Shown here piece after piece: positions 28,666-41,302 of a stretch of DNA of 64,000 bases. Both the position numbers and the translations under genes were made by a program. Positions within the stretch are counted from its first letter, which is position 1, and each line of letters starts with the position of its first letter. The stretch spans positions 246,818-310,817 of the forward strand of contig NZ_JH126468.1 of NCBI RefSeq assembly GCF_000225705.1, written 5' to 3'. The notes beneath the pieces were generated by a model, which worked only from the letters and a program-made list of their open reading frames with translations, made no database searches and was not told where the DNA came from. This DNA is from Collinsella tanakaei YIT 12063 (lineage in GTDB: Bacteria > Actinomycetota > Coriobacteriia > Coriobacteriales > Coriobacteriaceae).

Positions 28666-29742
28666 TTAGAACTGCTCAAGGAAGCGCATGTCGCCCGTGA
28701 CCAGGGCGCGCAGGTCGGGCAGGTCGTAGCGAAGCGCAGCGATGCGCTCCACGCCGGCGCCAAAGGCGAAGCCGGAGTACACGTCGGGGTCGATGCCGCA
28801 GTTGATGAGGACGTTGGGGTCGACCATGCCGCAGCCCAAGATCTCGATCCAGCCGGAGTGCTTGCAGAAGGGGCAGCCCTTGCCGCCGCACACGCCGCAG
28901 GAAACGTCGACCTCGCAGGAGGGCTCGGTGAACGGGAAGAAGTGCGGACGATAGCGCGTGGCGCGGTCCTCGCCAAACATGCACTTAACAAAGTAGTCGA
29001 GCGTGCCCTTGAGGTCGCCGAAGGTGATGCCCTTGTCAACGACCAGGCCCTCCACCTGATGGAACTGCGGCAGGTGGCAGGCGTCTGCCGTATCGGGACG
29101 GTACACGCGGCCGGGAGCGATCATGTAGATAGGAGGCTTCTGGGACTCCATGGTGTGGATCTGCACGCCGGAGGTCTGGGTGCGCAGCAGCACGTCGGAC
29201 TCGCCATGGGCATGCTGCTCGGGATGGGCGGCGGTGCCGGGGGCGTTGTCCTTTACATAAAAGGTATCGCGGGCAGAGCGGCTAGGATGGTCCAATGGGG
29301 CGTTCAGCGCGGTGAAGTTGTACCAGCTGCTCTCAACCTGCGGGCCGGTCTCCACGGTGTAGCCGATGCCGCAGAAGACATCCTCGATCTCCTCGATGAT
29401 CTGGTTGATGAGGTGCTGGTGACCGATCTTAGGACGAGCGCCCGGCAGGGTGATGTCCACGGCCTCGGTCGCCATAAGCTCGCGAATGGCGGCGCGCTTG
29501 AGCTGCTGGGTGCGGTTGTCCAACAGCGTCTCGGCCATGCGACGCATCTCGTTGGCTCGCTTGCCCAAAACGGGGCGCTCCTCGGGAGAGATCTTGCCCA
29601 TCATGCGCATCAGGCCGGTGATCTCGCCCTTGCGGCCAAGAAGCGCCACGCGCGCGGCCTCGAGCTTGTCGCTCGTCTCCGCGCCCTCGATCAGCTCCTT
29701 CGCTCGCTGTTCGAGCTCCTCAAGTTCATCGATCAAACTCAT
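28666..29742 (-). CDS. pheS: phenylalanyl-tRNA synthetase alpha subunit
   Basis: PheS is the catalytic alpha subunit (358 aa). It has an N-terminal coiled coil ('LIDELEELEQRAKELIEG'), and class II motifs 'PLDHPSRSARDTFYV', 'LLRTQTSGVQIHTMES' (motif 2 region), 'TDACHLPQFHQVEGLVVD' and the C-terminal 'FAFGAGVERIAALRYDLPD' (motif 3). The ribosome site is AGAGGGA. Expression is controlled by the T-box leader immediately upstream. Confidence 0.97.
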   Translation of the reverse strand: MSLIDELEELEQRAKELIEGAETSDKLEAARVALLGRKGEITGLMRMMGKISPEERPVLGKRANEMRRMAETLLDNRTQQLKRAAIRELMATEAVDITLPGARPKIGHQHLINQIIEEIEDVFCGIGYTVETGPQVESSWYNFTALNAPLDHPSRSARDTFYVKDNAPGTAAHPEQHAHGESDVLLRTQTSGVQIHTMESQKPPIYMIAPGRVYRPDTADACHLPQFHQVEGLVVDKGITFGDLKGTLDYFVKCMFGEDRATRYRPHFFPFTEPSCEVDVSCGVCGGKGCPFCKHSGWIEILGCGMVDPNVLINCGIDPDVYSGFAFGAGVERIAALRYDLPDLRALVTGDMRFLEQF

Positions 29743-29796
29743 CTGTTCCCTCTCTTTCCAAGCGGCACCGCATCACGGCACCAACCTGTTCCATAG

Positions 29797-30120
29797 AAAA
29801 ATCCGCCCTTGGAATCATGTGATCGCTCACACTCCCAAGGACGGATCAGATTTCCGCGGTACCACCTTGATTGGCCGCCGGTTGTCCTCCCGGCGAACCC
29901 TCTTTTGCCCGATGTCGCTCAGGCGGGCGGCTTCCCTACTCAGCACGAACACGCGGAAACGAGCGCAAATATCGTCTTGCATGCCCGTATCGCGGAACCA
30001 CCGTTCAAGTCGCAGCTCGGGAGTGAACTCGGGCTTCTATCGTTGCGGGTGGGCTTGCAGCCGGCGGCCCTCCCTCTCTTGGCAACGATGCGGCGAGGCC
30101 CAACCTCTCCGTCAACGCAA
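29797..30120 (-). ncRNA. T-box riboswitch leader of pheST
   Basis: The minus-strand leader carries the T-box sequence AAGGTGGTACCGCGG (29868-29854), which pairs with uncharged tRNA acceptor ends. It is followed by a terminator with a 12-bp stem (29846-29835 with 29812-29801, one wobble) and an A-run/T-run at 29801-29797. A likely specifier codon TTC for Phe is at 30027-30025 in a stem-loop region, and an AGAGAGGGAGGG segment fits the AG-bulge region of stem I. A second T-box-like motif lies upstream (see findings). Uncharged tRNA-Phe should favour antitermination and pheST expression. Confidence 0.88.
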
Positions 30121-30230
30121 TTGGCAGAAGGATAACACAACGCAATCAGACTAAAAGAGTGCATCACCCTTTAAGCTGACAGAACTTGCAGAACTTGCAA
30201 ACAAGACGGACAAGCCTTGCCCGTCTCCAT

Positions 30231-30359
30231 CTATAACTCAACCCCATACCTCGCGAGTAGGCCCTTGCGATTTTGAACAAGGCGCTCGCGCATAAACGGA
30301 ATCGAAAATGCCACATACCCACGCTCCGCGGGCTCGACAATCTGGCGCGATACCAGAAG
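30231..30359 (-). pseudogene. C-terminal scrap of an ATPase- or regulator-like protein
   Basis: A 42-codon minus-strand frame reads 'LLVSRQIVEPAERGYVAFSI' and continues to '...RYGVEL' and stop. It has no start; a TAG lies directly before it. The sequence resembles winged-helix tails of ATP-binding proteins, but the identification is weak. It lies in the decayed region after pheST. Confidence 0.4.
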
Positions 30360-30669
30360 CTATTCGCCATTATCGCTTTTATCGTTATTATCGTTTTTGT
30401 AGTGGAAATAGTATTTATCGCAAGATAAGGCAGCCAGACCGCCTTTCGCCCATACGAAGCGACCTTGTTATTTCTTGATGCGACGGCCCTACCAAGAAGG
30501 GCTTCATCGCCAAACGCAACGATGCGCGTTACGAAGCGCCCACACACTGTGACCAAGTCACCGACAATTGCGCGGCATCTCGAATACATTTTCCACAATG
30601 CGCAAAGACCGTGAACGCCAATCTAATTGCCACAGTGAAAACCGCCCCATCTCGCGAACAGGACGGCCC

Positions 30670-30799
30670 GTGACCCACCTCGCATCCTTTCTCGAGGGCA
30701 TCATCACCTTCATCTCCCCGCCTACTGCCCATGCCGCCCATCTACCTGGCCTACTTCGCCGACGTCGAGCGGCTCGATAGCGGCGGCGCCAAGTCCTAG
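30670..30799 (+). pseudogene. frameshifted N-terminal remnant of a CcdA-type membrane protein
   Basis: From a GTG at 30670 the frame reads 'VTHLASFLEGIITFISPP', typical of CcdA thiol-disulfide transporters, whose first helix runs 'FLEG-FISPC-LP-LPIYL-Y'. After a one-base shift the other frame continues 'LLPMPPIYLAYFADVE' before a stop at 30799. The critical Cys is lost and only about 40 residues remain. The intact protein would move reducing equivalents across the membrane to periplasmic thioredoxins. Confidence 0.6.
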
Positions 30800-30895
30800 A
30801 TGGCAGAGATCCTCACCCGCGTCGCCTTCTACGCCGGCGACCCCGCATGGGCCGCCTTCAAGATGGCTAAAGAGGACGCCATGGGTTCGGAACGG
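30800..30895 (+). pseudogene. C-terminal fragment of a carboxymuconolactone-decarboxylase-like protein
   Basis: The stretch 'MAEILTRVAFYAGDPAWAAF' followed by KMAKED matches the tail of CMD-family proteins. It directly abuts the ccdA fragment, and nothing recognisable precedes it in frame, so the gene has been truncated. Confidence 0.55.
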
Positions 30896-30904
30896 CAGGA
30901 CGAA

Positions 30905-30975
30905 CTAGAACATGGCCTCGTCGATGCGGCGGACGGTCTCGCGGTAGTCGTAAGTCGGCGGGGTCCAAGGGGCGG
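30905..30975 (-). pseudogene. C-terminal scrap of an unidentified protein
   Basis: A minus-strand frame ends 'PPTYDYRETVRRIDEAMF' and stop. It reads like a real C-terminus but I cannot identify the family. It adds to the cluster of gene fragments here. Confidence 0.3.
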
Positions 30976-31039
30976 CAGCGCGGCTGAGCCGAACCCCAAG
31001 CGCACCCCTCATTTCAAAAGAACCATACCCGCATTCGAT

Positions 31040-31516
31040 CTACAGTTTGATGGCCATACGGCCCGAATCTCCTATGCGGCTGAACCCGAAACGGGCATAA
31101 AACGCCGCCGCCGAATCGTCCACGGGATCGACCACGAGCGCCCAAGCACCGGCGATCGCTGCGACCTTGGACGCGTTGACGATCGCATCGCGTAGCAGGG
31201 CGGCGCCAAGCCCCATTCCTTTAAAATCGTCGTCCACGCCCAACATCCCCAGAAGCACGGCGGGGACCTGGGAGGGGGCGTTGCGGGCGAGCCATCCCCC
31301 GCCGATGTCGGTCCGCACAATGGAATGCGTGCTCAGCGTATAGAAGCCCGCCACGCGCCCGGCGCAGCGCGACACGTAGACCACGCCCGTTCCTCGCACG
31401 CGAGCGGTTGCGGCATGGCGCGCGGCCCACGAATCAACGATTTCGACGCCGCAATGGAAGCCCTCTATACCCTCCCCCGCCGCAAGCTGGACGGGCCGGG
31501 AGAACCCAGCCGTCAT
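31040..31516 (-). CDS. GNAT acetyltransferase toxin of a type II toxin-antitoxin pair
   Basis: This 158-aa protein has the GNAT fold: 'GTGVVYVSRCAGRVAGFYTL', the acetyl-CoA loop 'DDDFKGMGLGAALLRDAIV', and 'PVDDSAAAFYARFGFSRIG'. It overlaps by 4 nt the end of a DUF1778 antitoxin gene. In characterised TacAT/AtaRT systems such enzymes acetylate aminoacyl-tRNA and stop translation. The aminoacyl specificity cannot be read here. Both genes look intact although they lie in a decayed region. Confidence 0.85.
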   Translation of the reverse strand: MTAGFSRPVQLAAGEGIEGFHCGVEIVDSWAARHAATARVRGTGVVYVSRCAGRVAGFYTLSTHSIVRTDIGGGWLARNAPSQVPAVLLGMLGVDDDFKGMGLGAALLRDAIVNASKVAAIAGAWALVVDPVDDSAAAFYARFGFSRIGDSGRMAIKL

Positions 31517-31785
31517 GCCCAGATCTCCTCACGGGCCAGGAGCTCGCGGGTCGACTCCGGTAGCGGGGCGTCGAGCATCGAGCAGAACTCCTCGAACGCG
31601 GGCCCCGTGAGCCGCGTAAGGCGCGCTGCCTCTATATCTGCTGCCGCCGCCTCATCGAGCTTGGAGGTCGACCACTGCGTGAGCGTCTGGCCCCTGAGCG
31701 CCGCCGCCTCCTCATAATTGGCTCGCTGGGAGCTGGTGAGCCTCAGGTCCATCCTGCAGGGCTTTTCCAAAGCGGGCGCTGCCAT
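31513..31785 (-). CDS. DUF1778 ribbon-helix-helix antitoxin
   Basis: This 90-aa protein has a DUF1778 N-terminus with ribbon-helix-helix features ('RMDLRLTSSQRANYEEAAAL', then 'RGQTLTQWSTSKLDEAAAAD') and a C-terminal neutralising segment ('PLPESTRELLAREEIWA'). It would bind the GNAT toxin and repress its own promoter. The ribosome site AGGGGG is 6-7 nt upstream of the ATG. An inverted repeat (GTACG ... CGTAC, about 31813-31831) between promoter and start is a plausible operator. Confidence 0.85.
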   Translation of the reverse strand: MAAPALEKPCRMDLRLTSSQRANYEEAAALRGQTLTQWSTSKLDEAAAADIEAARLTRLTGPAFEEFCSMLDAPLPESTRELLAREEIWA

Positions 31786-31812
31786 GTCGTCCCCCTCTTT
31801 AAGCGTGACATT

Positions 31813-31862
31813 TGTACGGAATTACTACGTACGATTATAGCGCTGAGGGACCAGCGCGTCCA
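31813..31862 (-). promoter_or_regulatory. toxin-antitoxin promoter and operator
   Basis: On the minus strand TGGACG (31862-31857) and TATAAT (31839-31834) are separated by 17 nt. Just downstream lies the short inverted repeat GTACG-N9-CGTAC, a candidate site for the antitoxin. Confidence 0.55.
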
Positions 31863-32095
31863 TATGGCGTTGCAGCGAGCACCATATACGGCATGGAGCC
31901 GAGCATTCTGGATCGAACGCCTGCCCGCTGGAATTCGACACCTTCGTCGCCGGCATTGCAAGCATCCTCAGACTGCGGGATTTGTAGCGAGCACACGGGA
32001 GCAAGGTGCGCTCCATTGGATCGGTGCCCCTTCTCGGACCATCGATGAAGCATCAGTTCGCTTACGCAACAAGCGCTAAACACGGCGTACGCTGG

Positions 32096-32425
32096 CTAGC
32101 CAAGCGAGATAGAAAAGCGCTTCTCAAGATCCGCGATGTCCCACTCATTGGGCAGCACCCATGCGCTGTCGACGATAACCACCTCAAGCTCGTCCCAGTC
32201 GCGCGCGAGGCAGATACCATCGGGTAGATCAGCGGCGATGAGGTCCCCAATAGACGGAAACGAAACCCAGGCATGCTCGCCATTCCCATAGGCCTGGAAT
32301 ATGGCACAATCCTCATCCTTGATAACCATGTAGTCATGAGGCCGCTCGCCAAAAAACTGAAGCTCGATCTCGTCGCTGCCGGGGAGCGCGTCATAAAGCG
32401 CCATGAATGCATCTATGGGGATCAT
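32096..32425 (-). CDS. hypothetical protein
   Basis: A 109-aa acidic protein with no membrane segment, beginning 'MIPIDAFMALYDALPGSDEI'. It has several Trp residues ('YGNGEHAWVSFPSI', 'RDWDELEVVIVD') and no recognisable catalytic motif. The ribosome site is poor. It reads as genuine protein because acidic and hydrophobic residues alternate as in beta-strands; the fold might be SUKH-like but I cannot confirm it. It sits between the toxin-antitoxin pair and a dead nuclease gene. Confidence 0.5.
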   Translation of the reverse strand: MIPIDAFMALYDALPGSDEIELQFFGERPHDYMVIKDEDCAIFQAYGNGEHAWVSFPSIGDLIAADLPDGICLARDWDELEVVIVDSAWVLPNEWDIADLEKRFSISLG

Positions 32426-32500
32426 GAGCCGCCTCCATACTCTGAACGCGCGCCGATAAATTGCACCCTGTCCATTTTAAATTGGCCTTAATGATAGACG

Positions 32501-33277
32501 CTAAAATAGATAACTGACATTGCAGGAGTCTTGCGACTGCAAGCGCACTGGCGCTACTTCGCGTAGCAACATTTCTCGGGAAACACCCCGTCCGCCTGGA
32601 TATGGTACGCGATCTTCGATTGAGGCTGAACGCCTAGATGTCGATGCCGTTAGGATCGCGATGCGTCGCGTTCGAGCAGTTGCGTTCTCGACCATCTGCT
32701 GTTCGATCTCATGCTCCTGGTGGCCCTGCCTGGTGGTGATGAAGTCGAACACGTACGGGTCTTTGAGCGCCCGTTGGGCAAGTTCGCTCTCCAGTGCGGG
32801 CAAGGTGCGAGAGAAGTTGGTCACCTTGCCGGCAAGCTTCTGGCGCTCGTAGAGCCGCAAATCGATCTGATGGTCAAAGACCACACGCGACCAGCCATTT
32901 TCGATAGTCGCGTTCAGGTACCACAATCGCTCTTCCCCGGGCTCGGTCTTGTCGAGGAGCGGCATCATATGACCCCATGGAATTGTGCAGTAACTGCTGC
33001 ACAATTCAGAATCCACCTCACGAGCGAACTATGCCATGTACTTGAGACTACGGACCGAGAATCCCCTGATGCCGGGGAATGCAGCCCTAATGTCCTTCGA
33101 CAGAGTTTCGATGTATTTGTTGCCCCACTCCGAACGCGCCACAAGCTCGTTGCCTATGAGCCAGTACATGCGAATCATCTCTGCAGAAGCCTTCTGCGCC
33201 GCATTCGACCGCGCGGAAGAGATGACCTTGGCCACACGACCAAGAGACTCTTTGTATTCACCCGTGTTCAGCGACAT
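32501..33277 (-). pseudogene. YhcG/DUF1016-type PDDEXK nuclease pseudogene
   Basis: The N-terminal DUF1016 domain is in frame from 33277 ('YWLIGNELVARSEWGNKYIE', 'LSKDIRAAFPGIRGFSVRSL'). It stops at an in-frame TAG just after 'KYMA' (about 33031-33029). The same frame continues after it with 'CTIPWGHMMPLLDK', 'WYLNATIENGWSRVVFDHQI' and 'ALKDPYVFDFITTRQ'. The family C-terminal PDDEXK catalytic core is absent; the tail becomes unrelated sequence. The gene therefore has both a nonsense mutation and a lost nuclease domain. Such genes often accompany type I restriction loci, and an hsdS scrap lies nearby. Confidence 0.75.
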
Positions 33278-33370
33278 GACAGATCATCCAGTTTATAGAC
33301 TGTGCAACGAATGGCACACAATGTGGCACCCTGCTCAGGCGAGCATAGCACGCCGACCGGATATAACATC

Positions 33371-33458
33371 GCACCTCAATCTCACCGGAAATGAGCTTGG
33401 GAAGCGAGCGCTTAGGAGCGTTATCTCCAGATGCGATAATGCGTTCCCTCTGCCTCAC
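33371..33458 (-). pseudogene. possible C-terminal scrap of a type I restriction specificity subunit
   Basis: A short minus-strand stretch ends 'SLPKLISGEIEV', matching the common C-terminus of HsdS proteins (LLPKLMSGEI-V). Nothing else of an HsdS gene is visible. The identification rests on about 12 residues. Confidence 0.35.
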
Positions 33459-33635
33459 TTACCCCCGATACGCAAATCCACTCAACAAGCGACATCGCCC
33501 GCGCCCGCGATAGCCGCTCTCCGCCCATGCTACGGCGATATCGGTCTATTGGGATCAGCCCTGCGCTCGGGGTGGCGCCACTACAACCATCAGAGCGACT
33601 TCGGGGGCTTCGAACCCGAGGAGCGCTCCTAGTTC

Positions 33636-33754
33636 GGGGCGTAACCGGCGTGCCTGTTACCCACTTTGTCGACAAGGAAGGCGACCTGGCGGCCTACGGA
33701 CAGGGCAGGCTGGGAGTCGACGGCATTCGCCAGGGCATCGAGATGGCCAGCTAA
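33636..33754 (+). pseudogene. C-terminal remnant of a TlpA-like thioredoxin
   Basis: The plus-strand frame ends 'GVPVTHFVDKEGDLAAYGQG' and then 'RLGVDGIRQGIEMAS' and stop, typical of the cis-Pro strand and last helix of TlpA/thioredoxin-like lipoproteins. The active-site half is missing. Such proteins are usually encoded beside CcdA, and a ccdA piece lies on the same strand about 3 kb upstream. Confidence 0.6.
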
Positions 33755-34243
33755 CCCCATTCGACAAACCGCCTCCGCTGGGGATGGCAGCTGAGGGCCA
33801 CGAGGTGGGTGCTTCAGGGCCGTGCATACTCAAAACGGCCCTCTCCGCCATGACCCTCGCAAAGAAGGGCCTCGATGGGGGCAAGATTCTAGAGATAGAT
33901 TGGAGACATAACTAGCATGCCCGTCTCTTAGAATTCACTTGCACCTTGCCCGACTGCCGCCGTGCCGCCCTTTCTGCCAAAGATAAAGCCCTTCTCGCGC
34001 AAAAACTGGGGCCTGCGGACCTTGCCTTACCCACCTCGTGGTCCTCAACTGCCACAGCGACCGGCAACGGTTTCCAGCGCCCTTTTATCTATGCATTGTT
34101 GAAATGTAGGCACCCGCCTGACCTTGCACTATGCTGGGCGCGCATGCATAGCACCCGACAGCGCTTTCATAGACAGTATCCCCGCCCGCTGGGTACACTC
34201 TCAATCGTCAAACCAATCCCCCACGTACGCGCCAGGAGGCACC
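33755..34243. other. intergenic region upstream of the M32 peptidase
   Basis: About 490 nt with no convincing gene. A short frame ending 'KKGLDGGKILEIDWRHN' (plus strand, around 33870-33912) may be another protein scrap. I see no clear promoter pair. Confidence 0.4.
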
Positions 34244-35902
34244 ATGGGCAAGCACAAAGATGACTGCACCTGTAAACATGACCATAAGCATGACCACAAG
34301 CACGGCGAATGCTGCGGCAAGCACGAGCATGAGCACAAGCATGGCGACGGCGAGTGCTGCTGCCACGGCCACGAAGAAGGCCACGTCTGCCAGGCGCCCC
34401 AGCGCGCCGAGGAGTTCCGCGCCCTGCAGCGCGAGCTGTGGACCCGCTCTTACCTGCTAAAGATCACCGAGTTCGACGGGGCCACGGTTGCACCGGAGAA
34501 CGCCGCCCCCGCCCGCGGCGAAGCGATGGCCGCGCTCGCCGGCGAGCACCACCAGATCCTCACCAGCGAACGCGCCCAAAAGCTGGTCCATAAGCTCAAC
34601 AAGGCACTCTCCAAGGGCAAGCTCGACGACGCCCAGCTCGCCGACGAGGTCCGCGTCTTCGAGCGCGACCAACGCGAGGCCATGGCATTCCCCCAGGAAG
34701 AGGTCGAGGCATGGAGCCGCCTCACGTGCGAGGCGGACGCCGTGTGGCACAAGGCAAAGCTCGCCAATGATTGGGATTCTTTCGAGCCCTACATCGACCG
34801 CATGGTCGATGCGCTCAAGCGCCAGGCGGGCTACCTCGACAGCTCCCGCGATCCCTACGACGTCTGGCTGGACCAGTACGAGCGCGGCATGGACGCCGCC
34901 TCTTATGACAAGTTCTTCTCCCAGGTCCGCGAAACCGTGGTTCCACTGGTCCGCGATATCGCCGAGCGCGGCGAGCAGCCCCAGGCGGATTTCCTCACCG
35001 CGCGCGTGCCGGAGAGCGTCCAGCGCAACCTGTCCTTCGACCTTATGAAGCTGGTTGGCTTGGACATGGCCTCCACCACCCTGGCCTTCACCGAGCACCC
35101 GTTCTCGGAGGGCTTCAGCGTGGGCGACGCGCGCGTGGCGACGCACATCTACGAGGACAACCTCATGAGCAACGTCTACTCCGTCATCCATGAGGCCGGC
35201 CACGCCATCTACGAGTTGGGCGTCGACCCCGCCTACGCCTTCACCTGCCTTGAGGGCGGCACCTCCATGGGCATCCATGAGAGCCAGAGCCGCTTCTTCG
35301 AGAACACCGTCGGCCGCTCCCGCGCCTTTATGGGCCCGCTGCTCGCCCTGCTGCGCAAGCACGCGCCGGAGGTCTACAACAACGTGGACGAGGATGCGCT
35401 CTACCGCGCCGTCAACATCGCCCAGCCCTCGCTCATCCGCACCGAGGCAGACGAGCTCACCTACCCGCTGCACATCATGATCCGCTACGAGATCGAGCGC
35501 ATGCTCTTCTCCGGCGAGGCCACGGCCAAGGACGTTCCCGCCCTGTGGGCGCAAAAGACCAAGCAGTACCTTGGCCTGGACGTTCCTACCCACACCGAGG
35601 GCGCCCTGCAGGACACCCACTGGTCCGGTGGCGCGTTTGGCTACTTCCCCAGCTACGCCCTGGGCAGCGCCTACGACGCGCAGTACGTTCCCGCCATGCG
35701 CGCAGCGGGCATCGACCTCGAGGGCGCCTGCGCATCCGGCGACCTGGCCCCGGTGCGCACCTGGCTGGGCGACAACATCTGGCGCTTTGGCCGCGGCAAG
35801 GACGCGCCCGAGCTCATCGCCGGCTCTTGCGGCGCCCCCTTTGACGCCACGTTCTTCTGCGATTACCTCTCCACCAAGTTCCGCGACCTGTACAAACTCT
35901 AA
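34244..35902 (+). CDS. M32-family metallocarboxypeptidase with His/Cys-rich N-terminal tail
   Basis: This 552-aa zinc carboxypeptidase belongs to family M32 (Taq carboxypeptidase). The zinc motif is 'YSVIHEAGHAIYELGV' with the first His near residue 316, followed by 'SMGIHESQSRFFENTVGRS' carrying the third ligand Glu, and 'HWSGGAFGYFPSYALGSAYD' near the end. These are all standard. Residues 4-49 form an added tail with 13 His and 8 Cys (such as 'KHDHKHDHKHGECCGKHEHE'), which should bind metal ions and is not part of the usual family. The start at 34244 is fixed by AGGAGG upstream. Cytoplasmic peptide turnover is the expected role. Confidence 0.92.
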   Translation: MGKHKDDCTCKHDHKHDHKHGECCGKHEHEHKHGDGECCCHGHEEGHVCQAPQRAEEFRALQRELWTRSYLLKITEFDGATVAPENAAPARGEAMAALAGEHHQILTSERAQKLVHKLNKALSKGKLDDAQLADEVRVFERDQREAMAFPQEEVEAWSRLTCEADAVWHKAKLANDWDSFEPYIDRMVDALKRQAGYLDSSRDPYDVWLDQYERGMDAASYDKFFSQVRETVVPLVRDIAERGEQPQADFLTARVPESVQRNLSFDLMKLVGLDMASTTLAFTEHPFSEGFSVGDARVATHIYEDNLMSNVYSVIHEAGHAIYELGVDPAYAFTCLEGGTSMGIHESQSRFFENTVGRSRAFMGPLLALLRKHAPEVYNNVDEDALYRAVNIAQPSLIRTEADELTYPLHIMIRYEIERMLFSGEATAKDVPALWAQKTKQYLGLDVPTHTEGALQDTHWSGGAFGYFPSYALGSAYDAQYVPAMRAAGIDLEGACASGDLAPVRTWLGDNIWRFGRGKDAPELIAGSCGAPFDATFFCDYLSTKFRDLYKL

Positions 35903-35968
35903 AGTTCGGCAACGCGGCGCGGCCACCTGCCGCCGCATCAGCTTGCGCCTTTGGACGAGCATCGCTTT

Positions 35969-35998
35969 GGGCGGCCCCACGCGGGTCGCCCTTTTCTT
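35969..35998 (+). terminator. Rho-independent terminator of the M32 gene
   Basis: A 9-bp stem GGGCGGCCC/GGGTCGCCC with one wobble and a 5-nt loop is followed by TTTTCTTT. Confidence 0.85.
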
Positions 35999-36177
35999 TG
36001 GAACGCGACGGCGAACGGCACCGTGAAGCGGCGAGCGGCAGATGGCATTTCTCACCGATGCAAATGGGTATCCTGTTGCCTAACGTAGACCGTTCTGAAG
36101 CCGAGCGGCGGCCGCGACGCCCCGTAGCCAGCGCGCGGCACCGTCCTTGAGCCCAGAACCCGTTCGAAGGAGCACCC

Positions 36178-37143
36178 ATGCTCTACGCAATCTTCAACCT
36201 CTTTGGCGGCCTTATAGGCCTCGTCCTCATCCTGCTTGTGATCGCAGCGCTCACCGGCAACGTCTTCTTTGTGGTCAAGCAGCAGCACGCCGTCATCATC
36301 GAGCGCCTGGGCAAGTTCCACCGCATCGTCGGCGCGGGGTTCCACGCCAAGATCCCCTTCATCGACCGCAAGGCCGCCACGGTAAGCCTTCGCACCATGA
36401 AGAACGGATTCGATATCGACGTGAAGACCGAGGACAACGTCACCATCGGCCTGGAAGTCTCCGCCCAGTACCACGTCAGCTATGACATGGGCTCCAGTCC
36501 CGCGGATTCCGGCGTGTACAAGAGCTACTACATGCTGCAGCAGCCCGTCGCCCAGATGCGCGACTTCATTACGGATGCCCTGCGCTCTTCCATCCCCGTC
36601 TACACGTTGGACGAGGTCTTTGCCAAGAAGGACGACATCGCCAAGGACGTCAACGCCACCGTCTCCGAGCAGATGGACGCCTACGGCTTCACCCTGGTCT
36701 CCACGCTGATCACCAAGATCGCGCTGCCGGCAGAGGTCGAGGACTCCATGAATCAGATCAACGCCGCCCAGCGCACCAAGGCCGCGGCGCAGGACCTGGC
36801 CGAGGCGGACCGCATCCGCCGCGTCACCGAGGCCAAGGCTGAGGCGGAGGCCATGGAGAAGGCCGGCGAGGGCATCGCCAACCAGCGCAAAGCCATCGCC
36901 CTGGGCATCAAGGACTCGCTTGAGACCATCCAGGAGACCGGCGTGGGCAACGACGAGGCCAACCAGCTGTTCATGTTCACCCAGTGGACCGAGATGATGA
37001 GCGAGTTCGCCAAGAGCGGCAAGGCCGCGACGGTGGTTTTGCCCACGGACTTCCGCGACTCCACCAGCATGTTCGAGCAGATCATCACCGCGGACCAAGC
37101 CGGCGAGGGCATCAAGGTCCCCGCCGTGGACCCGGTCGAGTAG
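36178..37143 (+). CDS. SPFH/Band 7 (stomatin-like) membrane protein
   Basis: This 321-aa protein has an N-terminal membrane helix ('FGGLIGLVLILLVIAALTGN'), the SPFH domain ('QHAVIIERLGKFHRIVGAGF', 'IPFIDRKAATVSLRTM', 'VKTEDNVTIGLEVSAQYHV') and a long Ala/Glu-rich coiled coil ('AAQDLAEADRIRRVTEAKAE'). Stomatin-like proteins form oligomeric rings and microdomains in the membrane and often regulate proteases. No NfeD or protease partner is adjacent. The ribosome site is GAAGGAG. Confidence 0.9.
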   Translation: MLYAIFNLFGGLIGLVLILLVIAALTGNVFFVVKQQHAVIIERLGKFHRIVGAGFHAKIPFIDRKAATVSLRTMKNGFDIDVKTEDNVTIGLEVSAQYHVSYDMGSSPADSGVYKSYYMLQQPVAQMRDFITDALRSSIPVYTLDEVFAKKDDIAKDVNATVSEQMDAYGFTLVSTLITKIALPAEVEDSMNQINAAQRTKAAAQDLAEADRIRRVTEAKAEAEAMEKAGEGIANQRKAIALGIKDSLETIQETGVGNDEANQLFMFTQWTEMMSEFAKSGKAATVVLPTDFRDSTSMFEQIITADQAGEGIKVPAVDPVE

Positions 37144-37190
37144 TACCTCGCCCGCTCGCGCAAGGCGACTCCCGGCGTCAAGCGCGTCAA

Positions 37191-37236
37191 ACGGCAGCAG
37201 CCCCGATCTCGCATGGAGGTCGGGGCCGTTTTTTCA
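37191..37236 (+). terminator. Rho-independent terminator of the SPFH gene
   Basis: The stem CCCCGATCT/AGGTCGGGG, extended by ACGG/CCGT, is followed by six T residues. Confidence 0.85.
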
Positions 37237-37343
37237 CAAACGCCTATTAAGCTAATCTTGTTGCTGCGGAGCTTCGCAAGCGCTTCGAATCGAATGTGCC
37301 AACGGTAGAGCTAGGTGAAGTCCTCTCGATTTCCACGAAGACA

Positions 37344-37799
37344 TTAAAGCCGCAAGATCATGACGGGTAAATATGGGAAGACCCGTTGCGTTCGCATTCG
37401 CGGTGAGCTTGCTGAAATTTGTTTTTGCACCTGCTCGATGGGCATGCCTTTGCCGATTGCGTGTATGGCCAGCGTGCGTCGGAACTTATGAGGATGTACC
37501 CTACCAATCTGCGCTTTCTCCCCCAGCGCCTTGATCCTCTTCTCGATTGTGCAGACGCTCAGCCGTTGTGCCCTCCCATCGAAAGACTCACTCTCGATTT
37601 TGGCAAAGGATTTGATCCGTCCAACCTTCGCTATATGCGGTTGTTTTACCAGGCATTTCCAATTTGTGACGCACTGCGTCACGAATTGAGCTGGACTCAC
37701 TATCGAAGGCTTTCCCGTATATCCGACCCCGACGCCCGCATGTGGTACATGAATGAATGCGCAGACGCGAAGTGGAGTACACGTCAGCTCGAGCGTCAA
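37344..37799 (-). pseudogene. tyrosine recombinase (integrase) remnant
   Basis: The minus-strand frame contains 'TIEKRIKALGEKAQIGRVHP' followed by 'HKFRRTLAIHAIGKGMPIEQ' and VQKQ. This is the His-x-x-Arg part of the catalytic domain of XerC/phage-type integrases. The catalytic Tyr segment is missing: the sequence after VQKQ becomes unrelated. The N-terminal half is also absent. It marks a former mobile element between the SPFH and HIT genes. The gap 37237-37871 holds only this fragment. Confidence 0.65.
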
Positions 37800-37871
37800 A
37801 CCAACACGATGTTTCGAGAGCGCCTGCTGGCGAGCAAGGATAAGGAGCCAGTTTCAGCAGCCTCTGCTCGC

Positions 37872-38306
37872 TTACAGGTTGTCGATAATTGCCTGGGTGA
37901 TTTCGTCGTACTGAGCCGGCTCGAGCGTGATGCGGCCGGGGTTCATGGCGAATACGTCGCCAAACTCAAACGGGTCGTCCTTGTACTTGGGGACGATATG
38001 CACGTGTAGATGATGCATGGTATCGCCGTAAGCACCAAAGTTAATTTTGTCGGGGTTGAACGCCTTGTGCAGCGCAGCTGCGACGTGGCGGACATCGGCC
38101 ATAAAGGCGGCGGCGTCTTCCTCGGACATGCAGGAGATGTCATCGACGTGCTGCTTGGAGGCCACGATTACGCGACCCTTGTGGCTCTGCTCCTTAAACA
38201 GGATGAGCTTGCTGGCGGGCAGGTCGAGCATGGGGATGCCAAAGGCATCGACGAGCGTGTTGTCGGTCCCGCACATGCAGTACGAGCAATCGGTGTGTCG
38301 TTCCAT
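37872..38306 (-). CDS. HIT-family nucleotide hydrolase/transferase
   Basis: This 144-aa protein has the His-triad motif 'HHLHVHIVPKYKDD' near its C-terminus and a CxxC-type zinc pair near the start ('TDCSYCMCG'), as in Hint/HinT-like enzymes that hydrolyse nucleoside phosphoramidates. I chose the ATG at 38306 with AGGATC upstream, because the longer frame to 38486 has no family match. It stands alone. Confidence 0.88.
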   Translation of the reverse strand: MERHTDCSYCMCGTDNTLVDAFGIPMLDLPASKLILFKEQSHKGRVIVASKQHVDDISCMSEEDAAAFMADVRHVAAALHKAFNPDKINFGAYGDTMHHLHVHIVPKYKDDPFEFGDVFAMNPGRITLEPAQYDEITQAIIDNL

Positions 38307-38406
38307 GGTGATCCTTTCGATCTGGTCAACAATGAATGTCGCTTTTGCAGCAGGTGCAATCCCCCCCCGTTTGCACCACCAGATAATGGACAGATACAAC
38401 GCATGC

Positions 38407-38440
38407 GCAGTGGATACGAAATCGATTTCGCATCCACTGC
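38407..38440. repeat. 34-bp near-perfect palindrome
   Basis: This 34-bp sequence equals its own reverse complement except at one symmetric pair. It is centred on ATCGAT and lies about 100 nt upstream of the HIT gene and 90 nt downstream of the DMT transporter gene. There is no T-run on either side, so it is not a standard terminator. An operator or recombination site are options. Confidence 0.6.
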
Positions 38441-38474
38441 TGCCATGATACTGCCAACGAGTTGTCACTATTAG

Positions 38475-38486
38475 GTGAACGTTCAC
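38475..38486. promoter_or_regulatory. 12-bp palindrome GTGAACGTTCAC
   Basis: A perfect 12-bp palindrome resembling TetR-family half-site arrangements lies 45 nt beyond the transporter stop and 170 nt before the HIT start. No regulator gene is adjacent, so the cognate protein is unknown. Confidence 0.4.
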
Positions 38487-38530
38487 TTTTTAATTGTTTG
38501 TTTTATAAACGCGAATCCGACAGCACGCTT

Positions 38531-39568
38531 CTACGCCGTCAGGAACACCATGAAGATGATGAGGGCGAAGCCGACGATGTCCGTGGGGGCGAAGAAGGTT
38601 CCCAGGAACAAGGCGCTGGTCACTGTGGCGGAAACGGGCTCCACCGTGCCCAGCAGGCTGGCGCGCACAGAGCCAATGTCTTTCACGCCCTGCAGGTACA
38701 GCGCGTACGCCAAACAAGATCCCACAAAGATCAGCACCAGCAGCGCGCCCCAGCCCACGCCGTCCAAAGCGGGTACGTTGTTCCACGGCTGGATAAAAAT
38801 CGAGCTCACAATGCCTGAGATAAACATCGCCGTACCCGTAACGATGGACGAGCCGTAGATAGGCAGGATGCTGGTGGGAATGATGGACATGCACGCGGCT
38901 CCCACCGCGGCGATAAGTCCAACAGCCAAGCCCTCGGGCGGAATCGCCAGCTGGGTGGGGTCGCCACCCGTAGCGATAAGGTACGTGCCGCCAAATGCCA
39001 AAAGCAAGCCGGCGAGCTCGCGACGACGCGGCAGGCGCCGCACGGTCACGCACGTATACGCCATAATCAGCACCAGCTGCAAGCATTGCAGCACCGTGGC
39101 CGTTCCAGCATTGGTAAGGCGCACCGCCAACAGGTAGAAGAACTGATTGAAGAACACGCCGAACGCGGCAAGGAGTAGCAGTGTCTTAAGGTGCTTGGGC
39201 GTGGTGAGTAGCGTGAACAAACGCTTACGGTCGAACATCAGCACCACAATCAAAAATGTGGCGCCCGCCAAGATCTGGCGTATGCAGGTGAGCCACATGG
39301 TGTCGATGTCGTAATTCGCAAACAAAAAGCTGGCGCACGTACCCGAGAATCCCCAGAACGTACCGCCGGCGAGCGTCGCGACAACGCCCACCAGAGCTTG
39401 GCGCGCCGCCTTATCATTCAGACGTTCACGCCATGCCTTGCGCTGAGCACGCGACATAGCGTCGCGACCGTCAGACGGCATGTGCTCCTCGTCCACCGCG
39501 TTCTCGGCAATAGCCTCCGCGGCATGCGCCCCTGTCTGATTCTCCGACCCGGCAAGCTTGCTTGTCAT
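38531..39568 (-). CDS. EamA/DMT-superfamily membrane transporter
   Basis: This 345-aa membrane protein has about ten helices in two EamA repeats: 'LVGVVATLAGGTFWGFSGTC', 'NQFFYLLAVRLTNAGTATVL' in the first, and 'GLIAAVGAACMSIIPTSI', 'YALYLQGVKDIGSVRASLLG', 'TVEPVSATVTSALFLG' in the second. Such proteins export metabolites or amino acids; the substrate is not readable. About 50 polar residues precede the first helix, which is longer than usual, so the real start may be further in (Met at residue 30 or 38). Confidence 0.85.
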   Translation of the reverse strand: MTSKLAGSENQTGAHAAEAIAENAVDEEHMPSDGRDAMSRAQRKAWRERLNDKAARQALVGVVATLAGGTFWGFSGTCASFLFANYDIDTMWLTCIRQILAGATFLIVVLMFDRKRLFTLLTTPKHLKTLLLLAAFGVFFNQFFYLLAVRLTNAGTATVLQCLQLVLIMAYTCVTVRRLPRRRELAGLLLAFGGTYLIATGGDPTQLAIPPEGLAVGLIAAVGAACMSIIPTSILPIYGSSIVTGTAMFISGIVSSIFIQPWNNVPALDGVGWGALLVLIFVGSCLAYALYLQGVKDIGSVRASLLGTVEPVSATVTSALFLGTFFAPTDIVGFALIIFMVFLTA

Positions 39569-39777
39569 GCGATTCTTCTCCCGTCATTCGTCCCCATAGG
39601 CGTCCACCATATCGCACAACCACGCGCTGCAACAACACCAAAACGCAAGGTCACGGCAACTTTTTTATAGCGTTGCCCAAAACGATGCATCACGCTAAAG
39701 CATATACTGGGACAAGAAGGGCGCGAGTTCGGCGCCCGCCTAGATCGAACGCCGCCAATCGGCAGACGGAGGACGCC

Positions 39778-40146
39778 ATGGACCGCACCATGCAAGAGGC
39801 CATCGATATCATCGCAAGCGATTCCGCCATCGGCGAGATTGTGGACGAGCGCCTGGCGCAGGCGAGCGCCCGTCCCCGCAAAGCGCTCATCTCCCTCAAG
39901 AAACAAGAGATCTCATCCGCGCTCCAGCTCAACGTCTCCCCCAACAGCTGGCTTGTCGGCGCCCTCAAGACGCTCACCCAGCAAGACGGCAGCTTCGCCT
40001 ACCCTCCCGCGGTCCTCGCCTCTGCGCTGGGCTGCAGCGAAGACCTCGTCCAAGCGGCGCTCGATAACGTGGACGAGGTGCCGCTCGAAGAGCGCTACCC
40101 GCTTGCCGTATCCGTCGCCCGGCTCATGCTTATCCTGAGTCGCTGA
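39778..40146 (+). CDS. hypothetical protein
   Basis: A 122-aa mostly helical, soluble protein starting at an ATG with GGAGG 6 nt upstream. Pieces such as 'ISLKKQEISSALQLNVSPNS' and 'AYPPAVLASALGCSEDLVQA' look like winged or helix-turn-helix segments, but I recognise no family. It converges with the membrane protein at 40155. Confidence 0.6.
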   Translation: MDRTMQEAIDIIASDSAIGEIVDERLAQASARPRKALISLKKQEISSALQLNVSPNSWLVGALKTLTQQDGSFAYPPAVLASALGCSEDLVQAALDNVDEVPLEERYPLAVSVARLMLILSR

Positions 40147-40154
40147 CGCCGACG

Positions 40155-40982
40155 CTATTCGATAGGATCTCCCGCCGCAAGCGGACTATCCACATCTCGC
40201 GCCCCCACCAACGTGCCGGTCTCTGGATACCAGCGAACCTCTGCCAGCGGCTCCTCCAGCACGCGCTCGACCTGGGGCCAATCCGAAGCGTTGACGGAAA
40301 GGTGCGCGCTCGCCCGACGGGCATCCGCCGCCGCGACGTCCTCGTAAAGATCGACCTCGATCGTGGTGGGCGTAAGCATGGAGCCGCGGCCGCTCGGACG
40401 GTTGACGCTCGCGCCGTAGAACGCGAACTCATCCTGCCTCCACCCACCAGAGAGGTCGTCGAGAACCTCGCCGCATGAAAGCGCACCGGCCGCAACGGAG
40501 AACGCCGCCATAGCGCCGCAAAACACCACAAGGGCGGCCGAGCCGGTATGTTTATACGCTATGGGGTTCTTCTTGCGATAACGGCGATAGCAAACGGCCA
40601 CCGCGCCAAAGGCGATCGCGAGCGCGATTCCAACCACGCCGGTCTCGTCCGCAGAGGAAAGCGCCCCCATGGCAAAGATAAACGCCACGCCGTAGCAAAG
40701 AAATCCCAGGACAACGCCTTTGAGCTCCCTGCCAAGCTGGGCGGGGTCGATATGGGCGCGATGCAGGCGCTGCAGATAGAGACACGGCGTGAAGAGCGCC
40801 ATCGAGATGCCAAACAGAATAAAGCCAACGCCAACGGACGCGCGGTTATACAGCCCCGCCGCGCCAATGCTCGTGCAAAACCGGCTGTACACAAGCGTGC
40901 CCAGGGCGGCGAAGAGAAACGCGCAGCCAACCATGGCGACAACCGCCTGGCCGCGACCCTCCGCAGTGGTAAAGCGCTTCAT
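40155..40982 (-). CDS. multi-pass membrane protein, function unknown
   Basis: This 275-aa protein has about five hydrophobic helices in the first 170 residues ('AVVAMVGCAFLFAALGTLVY', 'VGVGFILFGISMALFTPCLY', 'VVLGFLCYGVAFIFAMGAL') and a C-terminal domain of about 100 residues with beta-rich sequence ('MLTPTTIEVDLYED'), probably outside the membrane. I see no catalytic motif. It has its own gap upstream and appears monocistronic. Confidence 0.65.
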   Translation of the reverse strand: MKRFTTAEGRGQAVVAMVGCAFLFAALGTLVYSRFCTSIGAAGLYNRASVGVGFILFGISMALFTPCLYLQRLHRAHIDPAQLGRELKGVVLGFLCYGVAFIFAMGALSSADETGVVGIALAIAFGAVAVCYRRYRKKNPIAYKHTGSAALVVFCGAMAAFSVAAGALSCGEVLDDLSGGWRQDEFAFYGASVNRPSGRGSMLTPTTIEVDLYEDVAAADARRASAHLSVNASDWPQVERVLEEPLAEVRWYPETGTLVGARDVDSPLAAGDPIE

Positions 40983-41302
40983 CTGTAAAACCCCTATCGA
41001 TATCGTCGGCTATTGCAGGATACCATCGCGCTTCAAGCCGCAACACCCTGTTTCGGCGGCGGGTACCAGGTGACGCCGACAAACGGTGGCAAAAACAAGA
41101 GCCGCGAGCATTCCGCAAGCACCGCCAAGGCCCAATTGTCCCCGCACTGCAACCACGCACCCTCTAACGGGTAAGCTATGCCTTAGGCAAATTCACATCG
41201 GATCGCATCGCCGCGAGCGCCAAGCGCGTGCATGCCGCATAAAGCACGCCGCGCGCCGCAAGCCCCGCCGCCCGCGACCCGCCACCGCAGAATAGGAGCA
41301 CC
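40983..41302. other. divergent intergenic region
   Basis: These 320 nt separate the divergently transcribed membrane protein and M16C peptidase. I find no repeat, RNA gene or strong promoter box; it presumably contains both promoters. Confidence 0.4.

Follow-up and report, generated by a model that had tools for sequence, protein, structure and literature searches.

A lineage-restricted histidine- and cysteine-rich tail of the SlyD/HspA kind on an M32 carboxypeptidase of Collinsella tanakaei

An M32 carboxypeptidase of Collinsella tanakaei YIT 12063 carries a lineage-restricted N-terminal tail of histidines and cysteines, of the kind known from SlyD and HspA but on a new carrier. Its gene (34244–35902, on the plus strand, as are all features of the window given below; 552 aa plus stop) lies in a stretch of 64,000 nucleotides, the whole of which was analysed and is here called the window. 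Arguing by analogy with known tailed proteins, we put at roughly one in two the probability that the disordered tail binds several divalent metals and buffers metal in the cytosol, with the peptidase serving as its carrier.

Residues 4–49 consist of 13 His, 8 Cys, 6 Lys, 6 Gly, 6 Glu, 5 Asp, 1 Thr and 1 Val; translation and counting thus bear out the coordinates, the reading frame and the 13-His/8-Cys composition given in the first-pass annotation. The window has 282 stop-to-stop reading frames that reach 100 codons (all six frames, whether genes or not), and when their 46-residue segments were ranked by His plus Cys, the maximum was the M32 tail, with 21; the next best reached 13, and those had two Cys and one Cys. 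The start had been attributed to a strong ribosome-binding site, and this is upheld by direct reading: AGGAGG (34234–34239) stands 4 nt before the ATG, and the M32 gene of Collinsella sp. BA40 also begins ATG-GGC-AAG-CAY after an AGGAGG of its own. The first in-frame ATG, GTG or TTG after the start occurs at codon 95 in the window and at codon 106 in BA40, within the folded core, and codon 95 is downstream of P84 and R91, both invariant in 25 aligned orthologs. With no in-frame start codon between 1 and 95, translation of a complete M32 protein has to begin at codon 1 or ahead of it. A mis-called start is thereby ruled out, and the core cannot be made without the tail. Initiation upstream, at the in-frame TTG at 34124, would give 592 aa and is possible but not favoured.

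The AlphaFold2 model has a confident core preceded by a stretch of predicted disorder, with pLDDT below 50 over residues 1–46 and about 30 in the tail. Its first helix runs from residue 45, so that the tail would be tied straight to the core. The distal part (residues 1–36; 34244–34351) is rich in Lys, His, Asp, Glu and Cys, variable, and partly made of 12-bp tandem repeats (34273–34302; 2.5 copies, 88% matches), and the proximal part (residues 37–49; 34352–34390), ECCCHGHEEGHVC, is nearly unchanged in the sister species. This proximal block contains, in both tailed species and perhaps by chance, HEEGH, which has the HEXXH form of a zinc site. With the tail as query there were 0 matches in the PDB, none in Pfam up to an E value of 1 and nothing significant in NCBIfam, where the weak matches (E 2.1–3.3) to ZnuA, to a peptidylprolyl isomerase model and to a nickel/cobalt efflux model are within what chance and composition produce. 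We take the last two models to be those of SlyD and RcnA.

The rest of the protein is, on profile and predicted structure, an ordinary M32 carboxypeptidase fold. PF02074 (Peptidase_M32), the sole Pfam family found, covers residues 72–546 (34457–35881, delimited by the Pfam profile and pLDDT) at E 1.8e-150, with 502.3 bits against a curated cut-off of 25.1. By sequence the protein matches B. subtilis BsuCP (PDB 3hq2) at E 1.3e-106, and 3hq2 was also the closest structure in a Foldseek search with the AlphaFold2 model (built on a 25-sequence alignment; mean pLDDT 86.9, pTM 0.84, at least 90 in 397 of 552 residues), at E 3.4e-36 and TM 0.87 by query and 0.96 by target. The M32 identity assigned in the first pass therefore stands, and the likeness to BsuCP and PF02074 extends across the whole core and fold. 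The tail is where the protein differs from the solved M32 sequences: none of the eight found aligns with it, their best stretches beginning at residue 57 or later.

A passage in PMC6675120 describes M32 enzymes as zinc-dependent, and the sequence predicts a metal-dependent, zinc-type carboxypeptidase here as well. The HEXXH motif, HEAGH (residues 316–320; 35189–35203), has H316, E317 and H320 invariant in the 25 aligned sequences. A list of M32 motifs given in part of PMC7918520 comprises HPF, HEXXH, HESQ, IRXXAD, GXXQDXHW and DXRXT, and the first five are all present in P0001 and P0002. At the sixth both read DARVAT, and not DXRXT; the 25 aligned rows read DAR[VI]AT in 10 (mostly Collinsella) and D[AV]R[VI]TT in 10, the remaining 5 being unread at this site as HPF was not found there. 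Judging from this alignment, DARVAT is a one-residue departure common to M32 relatives.

With one genome per species, M32 was found in 40 of 43 genomes of the genus Collinsella, and only two of these 40 have a tail, counted as such if at least 8 His plus Cys occur in the residues, 62 at most, that precede the core: the window genome (13 H, 8 C) and G020 (6 H, 8 C). In the remaining 38 the N-terminus is short or Lys-rich (e.g., MGKKLDKKAK in C. aerofaciens), from which it follows that the M32 enzyme has no need of the tail and that the tail is dispensable for the genus. A scan of contigs yielded 43 M32 loci (among which L051 was checked, and L054 and L072 are partial), with a tail in one, L069 of Collinsella sp. 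BA40, which we take to be the same gene as that of G020. In one C. aerofaciens genome the M32 gene is in two pieces (G002:C11:74982-76483; L092; L054), owing to a frameshift or a sequencing error. Outside the genus, none of ten further family genomes (L093–L102) has the M32 tail. M32 is present in at least 166 of 396 genomes of the class, and among the class-wide matches listed no other begins at residue 1 or 2. Among the matches listed in more distant genomes that start at residue 5 to 44, seven looked worth checking, and the six examined have no tail (L180–L182 have ordinary short starts, L183 crosses stop codons, and L184 and L185 lack one); the seventh, G156, which matches from residue 40 and has one stop inside, was left out. 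The plasmid collection held no match to the window M32 gene.

On a tree of the core with 43 rows (L072 was dropped as too short), the two tailed proteins are sisters with support 100/99, so that one origin of the tail suffices. Absence from close relatives, named in the first-pass annotation as grounds for discounting the tail, is thus half borne out: the tail is present in the nearest relative, BA40, and absent from the other relatives examined.

The BA40 tail is 60 aa long, with 8 His, 10 Cys and three CCGKH or CCGNY units, and is less extreme, its best 46-residue His plus Cys count being 14 versus 21 in the window. The two tails have in common the block CCCHGHEEGHVC, adjacent Cys pairs and one Cys triplet, and their last 13 residues are almost identical (ECCCHGHEEGHVC in the window, GCCCHGHEEGHVC in BA40). 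A search of the 3-kb flanks of the BA40 M32 gene for nine proteins that neighbour M32 in the window recovered none of them; the immediate neighbours therefore differ, and the tail has been kept nonetheless.

If the tail were functionless and had been made by repeat slippage in a disordered N-terminus, which is the rival that survives best and one that we consider unlikely, we would expect much of what the distal parts present. Part of the window tail is encoded by the 12-bp repeats, the distal tails are set apart by an indel of 11 residues and numerous changes (dN 0.395 and dS 1.217 over residues 1–36, from small counts), and other Collinsella have variable, Lys-rich N-termini. Furthermore, His and Cys align to the same residue at 13 of 21 positions and other tail residues at 16 of 28, which gives the ligand residues no clear advantage in conservation. 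However, the proximal block has remained almost unchanged (dN 0.044 and dS 0.252 over residues 37–50, again from small counts) despite a substantial dS in the core (0.595, with dN 0.083, over residues 76–552). Slippage also accounts poorly for the six aligned ligands within residues 1–36, a number reached in only 4 of 10,000 shuffles, though the alignment favours identity, and for the three CCGKH/CCGNY units that BA40 has of its own.

The neighbours with Pfam matches (SPFH, HIT, EamA, GNAT and a DUF1016_N fragment; two more ORFs have no match) are not metal genes, Rfam gave no match at gathering score over window positions 29000–41000, and the 243 bp upstream of M32 contain no perfect palindrome with arms of 6–8 bp and a gap of 0–5 bp; a metal operon was ruled out on these grounds. 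A candidate sigma-70-like promoter, TAGACA-18-TACACT (34170–34199), is a consensus match of 9/12, and a hairpin with a T run behind it (35969–35991; one found, with a mean of 1.8 in shuffles, hence weak) resembles a terminator and would be consistent with transcription of the gene on its own. PheS and M32 are 4.5 kb apart in the window, and the stretch between them includes an 82-aa ORF with a DUF1016_N start (33029–33277). PheS is at most 3 kb from M32 in 27 of 43 related loci. That M32 had been relocated in BA40, as PheS is missing nearby, was considered and dropped because the PheS of the window is also 4.5 kb away, which is beyond the 3-kb flank available for BA40.

Pattern searches of the same genome led to a hydroxyacid dehydrogenase (P0003; PF03446 and PF14833; L082:1471-2553, i.e., G000:C2:139272-140354, minus strand), whose C-terminus is a repeated series of His, Cys and acidic residues ending in HECGCGHDHGEDHECCGGHGHGEDHECCCGNHGA. 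The enzyme is present in all 43 Collinsella and all 65 family genomes, and its tail was read to contain no fewer than 8 His and 5 Cys at 63 of 66 loci (the 65 genomes, with G043 represented twice), or in 62 of the 65 genomes, that of the window included. The exceptions are G044 (3 H, 5 C), G001 (12 H, 4 C) and G021 (1 H, 0 C). At the other extreme, the tail of L221 (G039) is expanded, with poly-His runs and 40 His among the 105 residues that were read, a stretch that contains no stop codon. Since the dehydrogenase tail occurs across the family, it is older than the M32 tail. When searched alone it matched no Pfam or NCBIfam model, and among the matches listed in a literature search no open-licence paper described a His/Cys tail on M32 or on a hydroxyacid dehydrogenase.

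The two tails share a genome, CC/CxC and HxH patterns, acidic residues and a soluble enzyme as carrier, whereas that of the dehydrogenase is C-terminal, is built of repeat units of the HECCGGHGH kind and is found in most of the family. The score of the DNA comparison between them was equalled by 477 of 500 synonymous resamples and by 204 of 500 residue-shuffled ones. As synonymous resamples score as high, the tails look independent, and copying of the M32 tail from that of the dehydrogenase was ruled out.

Like those of SlyD and HspA, the M32 tail is a terminal extension, predicted to be disordered, in which His, Cys and acidic residues abound, and this fits the resemblance to metal-storage or metallochaperone tails pointed out in the first pass, as does its presence in the sister species. 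Its carrier, with PF02074 as the sole Pfam family, has neither an FKBP nor a GroES core, so the protein is not a member of the SlyD or HspA families but may work alike. According to passages of PMC7055735, E. coli SlyD binds up to seven Ni, has an unstructured metal-binding tail and is thought to have a storage role, and the tail, like that of M32, combines His, Cys and acidic residues and varies between species. The M32 tail differs in being N-terminal, Lys-rich as well and carried by a peptidase, and its NCBIfam match (E 3.2) is not significant. Similarly, passages of PMC3856676 report that the His/Cys extension of H. pylori HspA binds Ni in vitro and that deleting it leaves cells with impaired hydrogenase maturation, less nickel and a greater sensitivity to nickel. 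This too is a lineage-specific extension of a housekeeping protein; it differs in being C-terminal, on a co-chaperonin activated by NikR, and its metal role has been tested, whereas that of the M32 tail is predicted. The His-rich tail of mycobacterial GroEL1 has been studied as a copper ligand, as part of PMC10170517 records.

By analogy with these proteins, the 13 His and 8 Cys of the tail would bind several divalent ions (Zn, Ni, Co or Cu), the tail would act as a cytosolic metal reservoir or buffer, and the peptidase would be its carrier, with M32 catalysis independent of the tail. We infer the binding of metal, the choice of metals and buffering as what selection has kept from composition, predicted disorder and these precedents. 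A general reservoir of divalent metal is the simplest reading common to the M32 and dehydrogenase tails, and the family-wide occurrence of the latter suggests that this lineage places His/Cys tails on soluble enzymes. More tentatively, and with odds somewhat against it, Coriobacteriaceae may spread a metal buffer over unrelated enzymes instead of using a tailed SlyD (the latter judged from one genome), with a Collinsella sub-lineage having gained the M32 tail independently, in a modular fashion that does not depend on the chemistry of the carrier.

Tails that serve the peptidase itself are less probable than a reservoir. One such idea, raised in the first-pass annotation, is self-loading, in which the tail would capture metal and, when metal is scarce, deliver it to the HEXXH site of the peptidase that carries it. 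Such loading would be helped by the direct junction with the first M32 helix, from residue 45, and would suit enzymes that depend on zinc (as stated in a passage of PMC6675120). It finds little support in the distribution, since 38 of the 40 genus genomes with M32 have no such tail. A similar tail is moreover found on the dehydrogenase, and hydroxyacid dehydrogenases of this kind are not known to require a metal, so the tail there is unlikely to load its own enzyme; we accordingly regard self-loading of M32 as improbable. Somewhat less probable still is a metal-sensing switch, the other idea raised in the first pass, by which metal bound to the tail would alter or block peptidase activity: the tail adjoins the N-terminal helix, and SlyD isomerase activity is reversibly inhibited by Ni (a passage of PMC7055735), but the distal tail varies in length and sequence, which argues against a specific docking interface there. 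A zinc-thiolate element whose Cys-rich part would detect oxidants and respond by letting go of metal could be useful in an anaerobe and would suit the Cys pairs and triplet of both species, yet His outnumbers Cys in the window tail and we consider it very improbable.

A reservoir of divalent metal may be set beside other features of these genomes. A HypA match in 39 of 43 Collinsella genomes indicates that nickel use is probably common; HypB-like ORFs, sought near HypA, gave no match. The four genomes without a HypA match (G015, G023, G026 and G032; by one Pfam model, and with G023 87% complete) all keep the dehydrogenase tail, and a nickel store for [NiFe]-hydrogenase was rejected as the sole role on this ground. 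The two FKBP/SlyD-like proteins of the window genome (L188, L189) have no His/Cys tail. The HxHxH pattern, which is insensitive to tails of other kinds, matched this genome 45 times versus 7 in a reversed control, and those that looked gene-like by eye were the M32 tail, the dehydrogenase tail and a loop of an efflux permease alone. This permease (L104:766-1950; G000:C1, near 92 kb) matches the arsenic efflux model NF037962 at 5.1e-97 and ArsP_2 at 8e-16, and its long loop is His/Asp-rich and contains Cys. A composition scan of 225 records (882,036 bases) returned 48 distinct stretches, namely dehydrogenase tails, the window M32 tail, the permease loop and one probable non-gene in L032, at a threshold that the BA40 tail falls below and that may miss other kinds of tails elsewhere. 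A tail-alignment search of the same genome, insensitive enough to miss the M32 tail itself, recovered the dehydrogenase alone.

The interest of the M32 tail is moderate and rests largely on this wider pattern, in which the dehydrogenase tail, shared across the family, is of greater interest than the M32 tail and would offer a good way into metal handling in Collinsella. The two tailed and 38 untailed members of the genus form natural pairs for the gain of a putative metal-binding tail, and tails on chemically unrelated enzymes would argue that the tail, and not the enzyme, is the functional unit. If these tails bind metal, a common family of gut bacteria stores metal on everyday enzymes and not only on dedicated proteins.
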